Origin: Acetomicrobium hydrogeniformans
GTDB taxonomy: Bacteria; Synergistota; Synergistia; Synergistales; JAFGMB01
Length of the DNA stretch: 64,000 bases
Direction of reading: 5' to 3'
Assembly: GCA_016841745.1 (NCBI GenBank)
Contig: JAENYO010000002.1
Location: 124,001-188,000 of the forward strand
The position numbers were made by a program, and so were the translations under genes. The notes under the pieces were generated by a model, which saw only the letters and a list, made by a program, of their open reading frames with translations, did no database searches and was not told the DNA's origin. The first letter of the stretch is position 1, and each line of letters starts with the position of its first letter. Below, one piece after another: positions 44,071 through 60,293 of the stretch.

Positions 44071-44205
44071 TTGTTTTCAAGCTTGTCAATATCCGAACAT
44101 TGACCGATGAGTTCCATAAAATAATCGGAATTGGTATCCAGATTCTTTCGGGAAGCATAATCCTGGAAACCAAAAAACTGTTAATTCTTCATATAAAGAA
44201 CTAAC

Positions 44206-44233
44206 TTGACGTTTAAAAGACTGATGCTAATAT
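44206..44233 (+). promoter_or_regulatory. Extended -10 promoter of surface gene A
   Basis: TTGACG-N16 (ending TGC)-TAATAT; same layout upstream of four paralogues. Confidence 0.65.
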
Positions 44234-44370
44234 GGCGATAGTCTTTCACCAGACTTCTTATCTGTATTTAACACCCACACTTATACGTTCATCACGATCA
44301 AGGCAGGTCACTCTTTTCGTCATTTTTTCGTTTTAAGAACTGAATTTCTATTCTGGGGAGGTACTTGAAT

Positions 44371-46341
44371 ATGAAGAACTGCACTAAGAGAACCTTTCGA
44401 TATTCCCTTTCTTTAGTATTGTTTGTATTTCTGTTAACTTTATTTTTTACTTTTGGGGGAACAGCAGGTTATGCTGAAACTTATACAGTAAGCAACACAA
44501 ACGACAGTGGTCCTGGTTCATTAAGAGCTGCTATTGCCAGTGCCGATTCCTACGATGACGTAATAAGTTTTGCTGTAACAGGAACCATTACACTCAATTC
44601 GACACTGGAGATAAGCGGGGATAAGGGCATGAAGATCCAGGGGCCTGGTGGGGAACTTCTTGCTGTAAGCGGAAATAATGAGTGTGGGGTCTTTTATATT
44701 TCTACCACGGCGTCTGTTGACATATCAGGTATTTCCATCGTGAACGGTAGTGCAGATGATGGAGGTGGAATGTACAATTTCAATTCCAGCCCTACAGTGA
44801 CTAACTGCACTTTCTCCCAGAACACCGCAACTTATGATGGAGGTGGAATGTACAATTTCAATTCCAGCCCTACAGTGACGAATTGCACTTTCAGTGGGAA
44901 CAGTGTAACTTATGATAATTTTGGCGGCGGCGGAATGAGCAATTATCAAGCCAGCCCAAATGTAACGAACTGCACATTCTCCTCGAACAGCGCATCACAT
45001 AATGGCGGAGGAATGTACAATGACGCGAGCAGTCCGACAGTGACGAACTGCACCTTCTCCTTGAACAGCGCATCAAATATTGGCGGAGGAATGTACAATG
45101 ACGCGAGCAGTCCGAAAGTGACGAACTGCACATTCTCCTTGAACAGTGCGGATTATGGCGGTGGAATGTACAATTATGAATCAAACCCTACGGTTACTGA
45201 CGGTACTTTCAGCCTAAACAGCGCAGTTAACCAGGGTGGTGGAATGAGAAACCAGAATTCCAGTCCTACTGTGACCAACTGTACCTTTACCTCTAACACA
45301 GGAAGTGCTGGCGGTGGAATGGCTAATTATTATTCCAGTTCGACCATCATAGCCTGCACTTTTTCCTCGAATGCTGCCACTTCTGGAGGGGGCGGGATGT
45401 ACAACTATTATGATTATCTTGAAACCAGCCCCACTGTGATCGGCTGCACCTTCTCTGGGAATATCGCTACTTCTGGTGGTGGGATGAGTAACAACTTCTC
45501 TCCCAGCCCCACCGTGATCAATTGCACCTTCAGCGGGAACACTGCAAGTAGAGATTGGTGCGGTGGAATGAGGAACTATGAATCCAGTCCTAGTGTGACG
45601 AACTGTACCTTCACCGGTAATACTGCACCTAACTATGCTTTTGGAATGTTCAACGCTGGAAACGTCAAAGGTTCTAGCCCAATAGTGAGAAACTGCATCT
45701 TCTGGGACATCGATGGCGAAGAGATATATAACAGTCCAGGCAGTGTTCCTACTTTAAGCTTCTGTATTGTCCAGAGTAATGATGTTGGTGGAGGTACTAT
45801 TTCAAACGATATTATCTCTGCAGATCCCAGGCTTGAGACGTTAGCAGACAATGGCGGACCTACCTGGACCTGTGCCCTGTCAGATGACAGTCCTGCTCTA
45901 GATACTGGGCTTACAATTCTTGAGATAAGCACAGATCAGCGCGGAGCTCCCAGACCTTATCCTGGCGGAAGTTTCGATATTGGTGCCTATGAATCCGGAG
46001 TAGGTTTCTATACAATAACTGCCACCTGGTCCGAAGGTGGGACAATTACTCCTGAAGTAGCGCATACTTTGGCTGGCATAGAGGAAGAGGTCTTTTATCT
46101 GTTGCCTGATGAAGGTTATGAGATCGAGGCAGTCCAGGTAGATGATGTACCTGTTTCTTACGATGAAGGTAACAACACCTATACTTTTGAGCCAGTATCT
46201 CAAAGTCATGATATCTATGCCAGTTTCGTTTTGATTGAAGATGAAGATGATAATGGCGGAGGCTGCAACATCTCTGCAATTCCTGCCATGGGTTTCCTCC
46301 TGCTTGTACCGCTCATGTTTCTGGTAAAGAGAGGGAAGTAG
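44371..46341 (+). CDS. Surface protein A: beta-helix repeats, Synergist-CTERM tail
   Basis: Signal peptide; about 24-aa repeats (SSPTVTNCTFSxNxAxxxGGGMYN); tail NGGGCNISAIPAMGFLLLVPLMFLVKRGK. Confidence 0.85.
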   Translation: MKNCTKRTFRYSLSLVLFVFLLTLFFTFGGTAGYAETYTVSNTNDSGPGSLRAAIASADSYDDVISFAVTGTITLNSTLEISGDKGMKIQGPGGELLAVSGNNECGVFYISTTASVDISGISIVNGSADDGGGMYNFNSSPTVTNCTFSQNTATYDGGGMYNFNSSPTVTNCTFSGNSVTYDNFGGGGMSNYQASPNVTNCTFSSNSASHNGGGMYNDASSPTVTNCTFSLNSASNIGGGMYNDASSPKVTNCTFSLNSADYGGGMYNYESNPTVTDGTFSLNSAVNQGGGMRNQNSSPTVTNCTFTSNTGSAGGGMANYYSSSTIIACTFSSNAATSGGGGMYNYYDYLETSPTVIGCTFSGNIATSGGGMSNNFSPSPTVINCTFSGNTASRDWCGGMRNYESSPSVTNCTFTGNTAPNYAFGMFNAGNVKGSSPIVRNCIFWDIDGEEIYNSPGSVPTLSFCIVQSNDVGGGTISNDIISADPRLETLADNGGPTWTCALSDDSPALDTGLTILEISTDQRGAPRPYPGGSFDIGAYESGVGFYTITATWSEGGTITPEVAHTLAGIEEEVFYLLPDEGYEIEAVQVDDVPVSYDEGNNTYTFEPVSQSHDIYASFVLIEDEDDNGGGCNISAIPAMGFLLLVPLMFLVKRGK

Positions 46342-46384
46342 CAGCCCAGCTTAGATAAAAAGATACACCAGCTAGATTTTCAGA

Positions 46385-46420
46385 AAGCCAAGTCCATTTA
46401 TGGGCTTGGCTTGTTTATTG
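46385..46420. terminator. GCCAAGTCC hairpin copy 1
   Basis: AAGCCAAGTCCatttatGGGCTTGGCTT. Confidence 0.8.
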
Positions 46421-46699
46421 GTCTTTGCTGAGTTCCATAAAATAATCGGATCAGTATCCAAAACCTATATGTAAAATCGTTGAATTTATCTCAAAACGCC
46501 TTCGGCAACTTGATTATGAGTGATATCAAGTTTTTTCTGAATAATATTTCTTTTTATGGTACATTTAATTGTGTGGGACAAAATTCTCAGGTAGAGAAAC
46601 TTATGATCGGTGATATTTCAAACGAGATATAAAGAAACGAGCTAATAACTTGTTGGGCAGTGACTGAATCTATTCACACCCGAAAGGAGATTTTCTGCA

Positions 46700-47446
46700 T
46701 TGGATATTCCACGGATCTTCAATATCACTGAGAGTGCTCACCGTATCCACAACCCCTTCACACCCGAAAAGCTAGCCACTCTTGGCGAGGCGTTGCGCCT
46801 GGAACCGAATATCAGGGTGCTAGATCTTGGAAGCGGATCGGGCGAGATGCTGTGCACCTGGGCACGCGATTTCGGAATCATTGGTACTGGTATAGACATG
46901 AGCCAGTTGTTCTTCGAGCAAGCACAGTACCGCGCTCAAGAACTTGGTGTTGCCGACCGAGTCAAGTTCATCCACGGCGACGCTGCCGGCTATGTATCCG
47001 AAGAAAAGGTTGGTGTGGCAGCTTGTCTAGGAGCCACATGGATCGGCGGGGGAGTCGTCGGTACTATCAAGCTTTTGGCGCGGAGCTTGCGCACCGGAGG
47101 GATTATCCTCATCGGCGAGCCCTATTGGCTGCAACTACCACCGACGGAAGAGGTTGCCAAGGGCTGTAATGCTGGTTCTATAGCCGATTTTCTAATGCTG
47201 CCAGATCTGCTTGCCTCTTTCAGCGACCTCGATTACGATGTCGTGGAAATGGTTCTGGCAGACCAAAATGGTTGGGATAGATACGAGGCTGCCAAATGGC
47301 TCACCATGCGCCGATGGCTTGAAGCCAATCCCGGCGACGAGTTAGCCAAAGAAGTTCGAGCCCAACTGACCTCAGAACCCGGACGCTACGCCGCGTATAC
47401 GCGTGAATACCTGGGCTGGGGAGTATTCGCACTGATGGCACGGTGA
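46700..47446 (+). CDS. SAM-dependent class I methyltransferase
   Basis: IRVLDLGSGSGEMLCTWARDFGIIGTGIDMS; higher-GC codon usage than neighbours. Confidence 0.85.
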   Translation: MDIPRIFNITESAHRIHNPFTPEKLATLGEALRLEPNIRVLDLGSGSGEMLCTWARDFGIIGTGIDMSQLFFEQAQYRAQELGVADRVKFIHGDAAGYVSEEKVGVAACLGATWIGGGVVGTIKLLARSLRTGGIILIGEPYWLQLPPTEEVAKGCNAGSIADFLMLPDLLASFSDLDYDVVEMVLADQNGWDRYEAAKWLTMRRWLEANPGDELAKEVRAQLTSEPGRYAAYTREYLGWGVFALMAR

Positions 47447-59676: not shown

Positions 59677-59718
59677 CAGTCCAGCTTAGATATAGATAGA
59701 TTAAAGATAGAGTAGCAA

Positions 59719-59750
59719 AAGCCAAGTCCATTTCCGGGCTTGGCTTTTTT
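59719..59750. terminator. GCCAAGTCC hairpin copy 7
   Basis: AAGCCAAGTCCatttccGGGCTTGGCTTTTTT. Confidence 0.8.
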
Positions 59751-59772
59751 CATTCCCAGAAAGGACGCTGCC

Positions 59773-59892
59773 ATCCCCACAGTCACAAGTATTAAAATCG
59801 GAAGGACATCTTCCTTTCTATTTTGCACAGGCAAGACATATTACTTCCGTATTGCCATACCCAATAGATGTTCGGAAAATGTTCTGAAATGA
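59773..59892 (+). pseudogene. Degenerate integrase N-terminal fragment
   Basis: (ATC)PTVTSIKIGRTSSFLFCTGKTYYFRIAIPNRCSENVLK*; start ATG to ATC, frameshift after RIAIP. Confidence 0.75.
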
Positions 59893-60249
59893 ACTCCACG
59901 TATCGAGAAGTGTACTCTAAGCCGGAATTTCCAGAAGGTAGTAAGTCGGCATGTATGGTCTGATTACACGGACAAGGCCGAAGAGGTCCGGCTTACCCCC
60001 CGGGGGAAAAGTACATATGCACAACGTTCTCAGACCATAGAACGGGTATTTGCGTATGCCAGGGAAAGGCATGGTCTGAGATATCCCATGGTGAGAGGCA
60101 GGACCAGAATGAAAATGGAGATCTTGCTTACCTTTACATGTATGAATCTGAAGAAACTGGCTAAGTGTAAGGTCAAAGATCCAGGGTTTAGGGAGTTTAG
60201 CTCCTATGGTTCTTCAATTTCTACTCATTTTGTTCCAGCCAGGATTTAG
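59893..60249 (+). pseudogene. IS1182-like transposase C-terminal remnant
   Basis: VVSRHVWSDYTDKAEEVRLTPRGKSTYAQRSQTIERVFAYARERHGLRYPMVRGRTRMKMEILLTFTCMNLKKLAKC; no start codon. Confidence 0.75.
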
Positions 60250-60258
60250 AAAAATATA

Positions 60259-60293
60259 AAAGTCCCTTGGAAAAGTATCTCCAAGGGACTTTG
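60259..60293. terminator. Terminator hairpin
   Basis: AAAGTCCCTTGGA...TCCAAGGGACTTT. Confidence 0.8.

Follow-up and report, generated by a model that had tools for sequence, protein, structure and literature searches.

Beta-helix surface-protein genes in a probable decayed ssrA-type island of a Synergistales genome, mosaicized by gene conversion

The window analyzed here, a stretch of 64,000 nt (contig C8:124001-188000) from the 3.04-Mb, 15-contig genome of the Synergistales bacterium Acetomicrobium hydrogeniformans, contains an island with five paralogous genes for beta-helix surface proteins (A–E), cargo genes, and remnants of mobile elements. All five genes are intact and lie in one orientation, and each possesses its own promoter (TTGAC / N16-17 / TA(A/G)CAT), leader (130-170 nt), signal peptide, repeats, choice-anchor-Q (Q) domain, tail, and terminator hairpin (GCCAAGTCC)—a conserved frame that an earlier note on this DNA had already described and that our comparisons bear out. 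The note had let the island begin at 44203; we place its left edge 200 nt further left, at ~44003, where a copy of the 3′ end of ssrA, the gene for transfer-messenger RNA (tmRNA), is located. The comparison set comprised one genome of the genus (the source itself) and one other of the family (G001), along with G042 and G066, Synergistales from another family than the window genome. The left edge and the surface genes are as follows.

44003-44022 (+): ~20-nt copy of the ssrA 3′ end (exact CCCGCGCCTCCACCA), presumed attachment-site remnant at the left edge
44023-44140 (+): ssrA terminator and 'type-1' flank (GAGTTCCATAAAAT..GGTATCC), by sequence comparison
44211-44370 (+): promoter and leader of gene A, by leader alignment; continuous with the ssrA-adjacent gene of G001
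44371-46341 (+): gene A, surface gene with beta-helix, choice-anchor-Q domain and CTERM-like tail, from its open reading frame (ORF) and profile matches
49876-51375 (+): gene B, surface gene with an A/C-like N module behind a D/H1-like leader
51747-53096 (+): gene C, surface gene, from ORF and profile matches
53446-55185 (+): gene D, surface gene, from ORF and profile matches
58411-59676 (+): gene E, surface gene, from ORF, profiles, and leader alignment; a longer ORF (from 58288) begins within the leader

The assignment of A–E to predicted surface proteins of the beta-helix type, likewise proposed in the note, holds. All five score 72-90 bits against the choice_anch_Q model NF041518 (curated cut-off, 25 bits), and Pfam/TIGR models detect a right-handed beta-helix in most of them. 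An AlphaFold model of E, built from five sequences, is itself a right-handed beta-helix (mean pLDDT 73.5; >90 over most of the helix). Foldseek returned Rhombotarget A (PDB 9cdv; E=1.2e-5, TM-score 0.49), which we take to be a CTERM-type surface protein, as the top PDB match of this model; the predicted fold has the same architecture, and the relationship is not close. A PDB sequence search with D gave no match. The tails follow a Gly-Cys-transmembrane-basic order and their best NCBIfam match is mostly Synerg-CTERM, TIGR04564, although the scores (A 22.0, B 17.9, C 18.7, D 12.6, and E 18.2 bits) all remain under its cut-off of 22.5; the CTERM label of the note thus stands as a likeness rather than a membership. 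A paralog elsewhere in the genome (C14:303k) exceeds this cut-off at 30.8 bits. With their signal peptide, beta-helix passenger, and Gly/Cys motif followed by a transmembrane segment and a basic tail, A–E resemble CTERM-sorted proteins (TIGR04564; MYXO-CTERM/myxosortase, PMC11980579; Rhombotarget A). In their expanded paralogy and short G/NCTF-type repeats they are also like Chlamydia Pmp-type families, and A and C match PF02415 weakly. Unlike Pmp proteins, however, A–E carry no autotransporter barrel domain in profile searches or in the model of E, and the CTERM-like transmembrane and basic tail stands in its place.

Upon alignment, the left edge matches the end of ssrA. Positions 44003-44140 match the end of G001 ssrA and its downstream sequence at 89% over 139 nt (E=5e-47; 180 bits, whereas none of 300 random pieces exceeded 29 bits), and the homology extends through the leader and the start of gene A (74% over 786 nt) into the surface gene directly behind G001 ssrA. 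These alignments establish, at the level of sequence, that the unit, running from the ssrA 3′ end through the ssrA terminator and flank to the leader and gene A, corresponds to the ssrA-adjacent series of G001 in a displaced copy. Further copies of the ssrA end and flank occur on C263 of G001, in G042, and in G066 (there twice in tandem), often followed by a noncoding segment (S) and differing cargo. In the window, S lies at 46460-46655 (+). By sequence comparison it recurs in the ssrA islands of other Synergistales genomes: identity to the G042 copy is 86% over ~229 nt, to that of G001 87% over 107 nt, and to that of G066 69%. It is possibly the leading region of an element. We also observed that the S segments, ~230 nt in length (window 46460-46655 and 56208-56450; G042; G066, two copies; G001 C263), always have a different cargo gene behind them, in ssrA-flank contexts.

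The hairpin is the second recurrent junction. It is conserved after each of A–E and folds far better than shuffled sequences (z about -5.4 to -6.1); an Rfam scan of window positions 40000-64000 returned no RNA family. Integrase fragments, as the note had listed them, are indeed present.

46387-46410 (+): hairpin after A
47792-47815 (+): hairpin directly ahead of the integrase 5′ part
51421-51444 (+): hairpin after B, with a type-1-like flank next
53141-53164 (+): hairpin after C; the type-1 flank and the leader of D come next, which is the 'empty' arrangement
55230-55253 (+): hairpin after D, which forms the left repeat of the D–E insert
58115-58138 (+): orphan hairpin without a surface gene upstream, right repeat of the D–E insert (34-nt direct repeat, 91%)
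59721-59744 (+): hairpin after E
47846-48388 (+): truncated 5′ part of a DUF6538 tyrosine integrase (PF20172, E=1.7e-15)
~55282-55343 (+): integrase 5′ fragment in the D–E insert
59773-59890 (+): degenerate integrase 5′ fragment, 81.5% identical to 47791-47946

A hairpin directly precedes a DUF6538 integrase start at 47792, 55230, and 59721, and also on C7 (303k) and in G066, in both of which no surface gene lies ahead. The integrase pieces are not merely interspersed, as the note had put it: the unit begins at the ssrA 3′ end, and the hairpin–integrase module recurs in other Synergistales. On C5 of G001, the order of tail, terminator, hairpin, integrase remnant, ssrA terminator, and surface gene presents the same junction type as the window. 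Relatives of the integrase measure 575-617 aa and mostly lie ~100-175 nt behind a tRNA gene (Ser, Ala, SeC, Thr), suggesting that this integrase class targets RNA-gene ends. As a separate observation, G066 carries a short hydrophobic peptide ORF (MGLKIITGLITAAPALIRAIIVAAVKLLQ; L173 12558-12650) just ahead of its hairpin–integrase junction.

Two cargo blocks separate the surface genes, and their flanks, joined solely for comparison, align with paralogous sites that lack them.

46429-49263 (+): A–B insert, 2.8 kb relative to the C14 H1–H2 intergenic region; joined flanks align at 82.5%
46700-47446 (+): S-adenosylmethionine-dependent methyltransferase, cargo, by profile matches
47655-47723 (+): orphan CTERM tail of a C14:303k-type surface gene, 77% to L143 4931-4999
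48405-49259 (+): CPBP (Rce1-like) membrane protease, cargo, by profile matches
55254-58138 (+): D–E insert, 2.9 kb; joined flanks align with the C–D intergenic region through the hairpin (275 identities in 357 columns)
59896-60246 (+): C-terminal transposase remnant of an insertion sequence (DDE_Tnp_1_6, E=2.5e-16)

The A–B insert comprises a type-1 flank, S segment, methyltransferase, orphan tail, hairpin, integrase 5′ part, and CPBP gene; the D–E insert holds the integrase 5′ fragment, a GNAT gene, an S copy (56208-56450), a small, predicted secreted repeat peptide, DUF3795 and OsmC genes, and the second hairpin. Relative to the empty paralogous sites, both blocks align as insertions at hairpins. 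The cargo genes named in the note (methyltransferase, CPBP, DUF3795) were all found, as was its insertion-sequence remnant, yet the GC content of the cargo is only mildly elevated (~0.49 vs ~0.44), and of the orphan CTERM tails that it had mentioned we recovered one and found no second. The tail-terminator-hairpin order at this orphan tail recurs on C5 of G001 (82% over 164 nt). We considered a dedicated role of the CPBP protease in sorting and dropped this idea: since it is only weakly like MmRce1 and the genome has two other CPBP genes, we leave it as cargo. Two minor features belong here. The peptide in the D–E insert (56570-56769) is predicted to be small and secreted, with APNSGDGI(S/P)DGSG repeats; and a repeated gene fragment (...CIPIGTGAMDIAASAVALQKAEEQGLG...) is present before B (49267-49540), between H1 and H2 on C14, and at L142 3118-3278.

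The five genes are part of a core family of 14 distributed over contigs C8, C6, C14, and C2: besides A–E, contig C8 holds one additional member, C6 has five, C14 has two (H1 and H2), and C2 has one; diverged relatives occur on C4, C8, and C14. One diverged gene, on C14 (303k), sits behind an ssrA-terminator remnant. Terminators differ by cluster (GCCAAGTCC in the window and at H1; AAAGGATCC... on C6 and at H2). For nearly every family gene the closest paralog changes from module to module. In B, for instance, the leader resembles that of D (87%), the N module those of A and C (77%), and the Q module that of E (87%), while H1 and H2 are 94% identical in the leader and 64% in the N module. The pairwise homoplasy index test on leader+N+Q+C gave z=-19, a value reached by no permutation; the trees of leader, N, and Q are mutually incompatible in approximately unbiased tests; and breakpoints concentrate around the start codon and signal peptide. 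Exact tracts flanked by diverged sequence mark individual exchanges.

A 44503-44650 (+) = C 51879-52026: A–C tract, 148 nt; flanks 59/75%
B 51045-51236 (+) = E 59349-59540: B–E tract, 192 nt; flanks 69/74%

Two further tracts link F2 with F3 (234 nt; flanks 86/64%) and D with H1 (76 nt in the leader, spanning different contigs). Homologous recombination among the copies is thus strongly supported on sequence grounds, and the alignments show the 14 core paralogs to be mosaics of modules in which exact tracts reach 234 nt. The earlier note had placed this recombination between the repeats. However, the exact tracts fall in the constant modules (N, Q) and leaders, and no identity longer than 30 nt joins the repeat blocks of any two genes, arguing that recent conversion homogenizes the frame and that repeats do not recombine between genes. 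Nor is exchange confined to the island; the family exchanges genome-wide.

We consider it reasonably likely, with a probability of roughly 0.65, that the locus represents decayed ssrA-type (tmRNA) integrative elements in tandem, which carried a secreted, CTERM-anchored beta-helix protein as cargo, and that gene conversion subsequently mosaicized them. An ssrA-type element would have taken a surface gene from ssrA to a new position behind an efflux operon, where the unit of flank, leader, gene, and hairpin may have been amplified in tandem. Later cargo-bearing elements would then have inserted at terminator hairpins, presumably through integrase action, and decayed to integrase stubs. RecA-type conversion between constant modules could keep the promoter, secretion, and anchor parts interchangeable while each repeat block diverges alone. 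The product would probably be a set of beta-helix proteins displayed at the surface and differing in their binding faces.

Several points weigh against this interpretation. The genuine ssrA of this genome is on C7 (308248-308598), away from the island, and near the right boundary at 60290 no CCCGCGCCTCCACCA copy was found at ≤2 mismatches. A search for an intact DUF6538-type integrase yielded truncated pieces only. The hairpins after A, B, and C pass straight into flank without an integrase, which plain tandem duplication would explain as well. Identical tracts that exceed short-read length could in principle be assembly effects, and the analysis covered one assembly of this genome and, within the family, one distant relative, G001. 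The closest known islands, those of Dehalococcoides, have the 3′ end of ssrA as direct repeats of ~20 nt at their boundaries, grow by tandem accretion, and carry niche genes; some have no integration module, and module swapping by homologous recombination has been proposed for them (PMC3146451, PMC2764846). The island shares with them the ssrA 3′-end copy at its left boundary. In contrast, Dehalococcoides islands use a serine recombinase (DsiB) and carry reductive dehalogenases, whereas here we find DUF6538 tyrosine integrase pieces and surface-protein cargo, a copy away from ssrA, and a terminator hairpin as recurrent junction. Because the right-hand ssrA repeat is lacking and the location is away from ssrA, we do not file the island as a proven member of the ssrA-island kind.

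The strongest competitor, to which we assign a real if clearly smaller chance, is ordinary tandem duplication, with gene conversion and unequal crossing-over (both RecA-dependent) acting on the copies; the pieces of integrase, ssrA, and insertion sequence would then be bystanders that gathered in a dispensable region. It would account for a flank-leader-gene-hairpin unit repeated in a single orientation, for the conversion tracts, and for the T-tract microhomology GCTTTTTTATTG common to hairpin tail and ssrA terminator; in addition, G001 likewise shows variability between its efflux genes and MATE. Yet bystanders would hardly place an ssrA 3′ end exactly at the left edge, with the closest relative of gene A behind G001 ssrA, nor would they start both inserts exactly at hairpins or conserve a hairpin–integrase module where surface genes are absent. 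Moreover, the surface cluster on C6 is likewise joined to an inter-family island: it adjoins 2 kb of DNA that carries tyrosine integrases and is 82-85% identical to an island of G042 (upstream of the cluster, L141 17997-20000 [C6:131997-134000] vs L196 7577-10858).

Programmed antigenic or adhesin variation, here taken as silent cassettes recombining via repeats into expressed copies, corresponds to the diversification locus of the earlier note and appears improbable to us. Several full-length paralogs with shared promoters and variable repeat number, and recombination that is both real and recent, speak in its favor. Gene content and order differ from G001, the only family relative compared, so that the identical content and order in relatives that the note had named as counting against it was not found. 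Nevertheless, a separate promoter, signal peptide, and terminator accompany each copy, silent partial cassettes were not seen, repeat blocks show no recent exchange (≤30 nt), and we saw no sign of expression switching or of a host immune target. Positive selection was sought in the conserved modules and not found; dN/dS was ~0.1-0.35 in the pairs tested, well under 1 and indicative of purifying selection. An integron-like cassette array, with the hairpin as an attC-type site for a dedicated integrase, would suit gene–hairpin units in one orientation with unrelated cargo between them, and is very improbable given that the integrase pieces are of the DUF6538 class (relatives behind tRNA genes) rather than the IntI type, that the C6-cluster hairpins differ in sequence, and that S segments stand before genes, not after.

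Reading the locus as decayed ssrA-type elements joins two topics usually kept separate—tmRNA-type islands, here carrying a surface gene, and conversion that keeps a secretion and anchoring frame uniform while repeats diverge. It offers a concrete route by which environmental Gram-negative bacteria may acquire and expand CTERM-sorted surface repertoires, and it highlights a terminator-hairpin/integrase junction common to different Synergistales families. Tentatively, and with some doubt, the GCCAAGTCC-ATTTCC-GGGCTTGGC terminator itself might serve as attachment site for a branch of DUF6538 integrases, whose islands would then enter surface-gene terminators; by analogy with the relatives 100-175 nt behind tRNA genes, the integrase start would lie ~30 nt inside the hairpin. 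If so, surface genes could gain cargo without being broken.

A described phage was considered as the source and rejected: integrase relatives were found in none of the IMG/VR, phage, and plasmid records searched, and neither hairpin nor S segment occurs in IMG/VR, leaving such an origin unsupported. Finally, near ssrA on C7 we noticed an open frame (MTFSPSLSSGFTGARNRSKY..., glutamate-synthase-like by eye; C7:305358-306863, L199 2359-3864) that is also present at L196 645-2150. The C7 frame is 88% identical in DNA to G042 over 1.6 kb, a similarity that suggests transfer.

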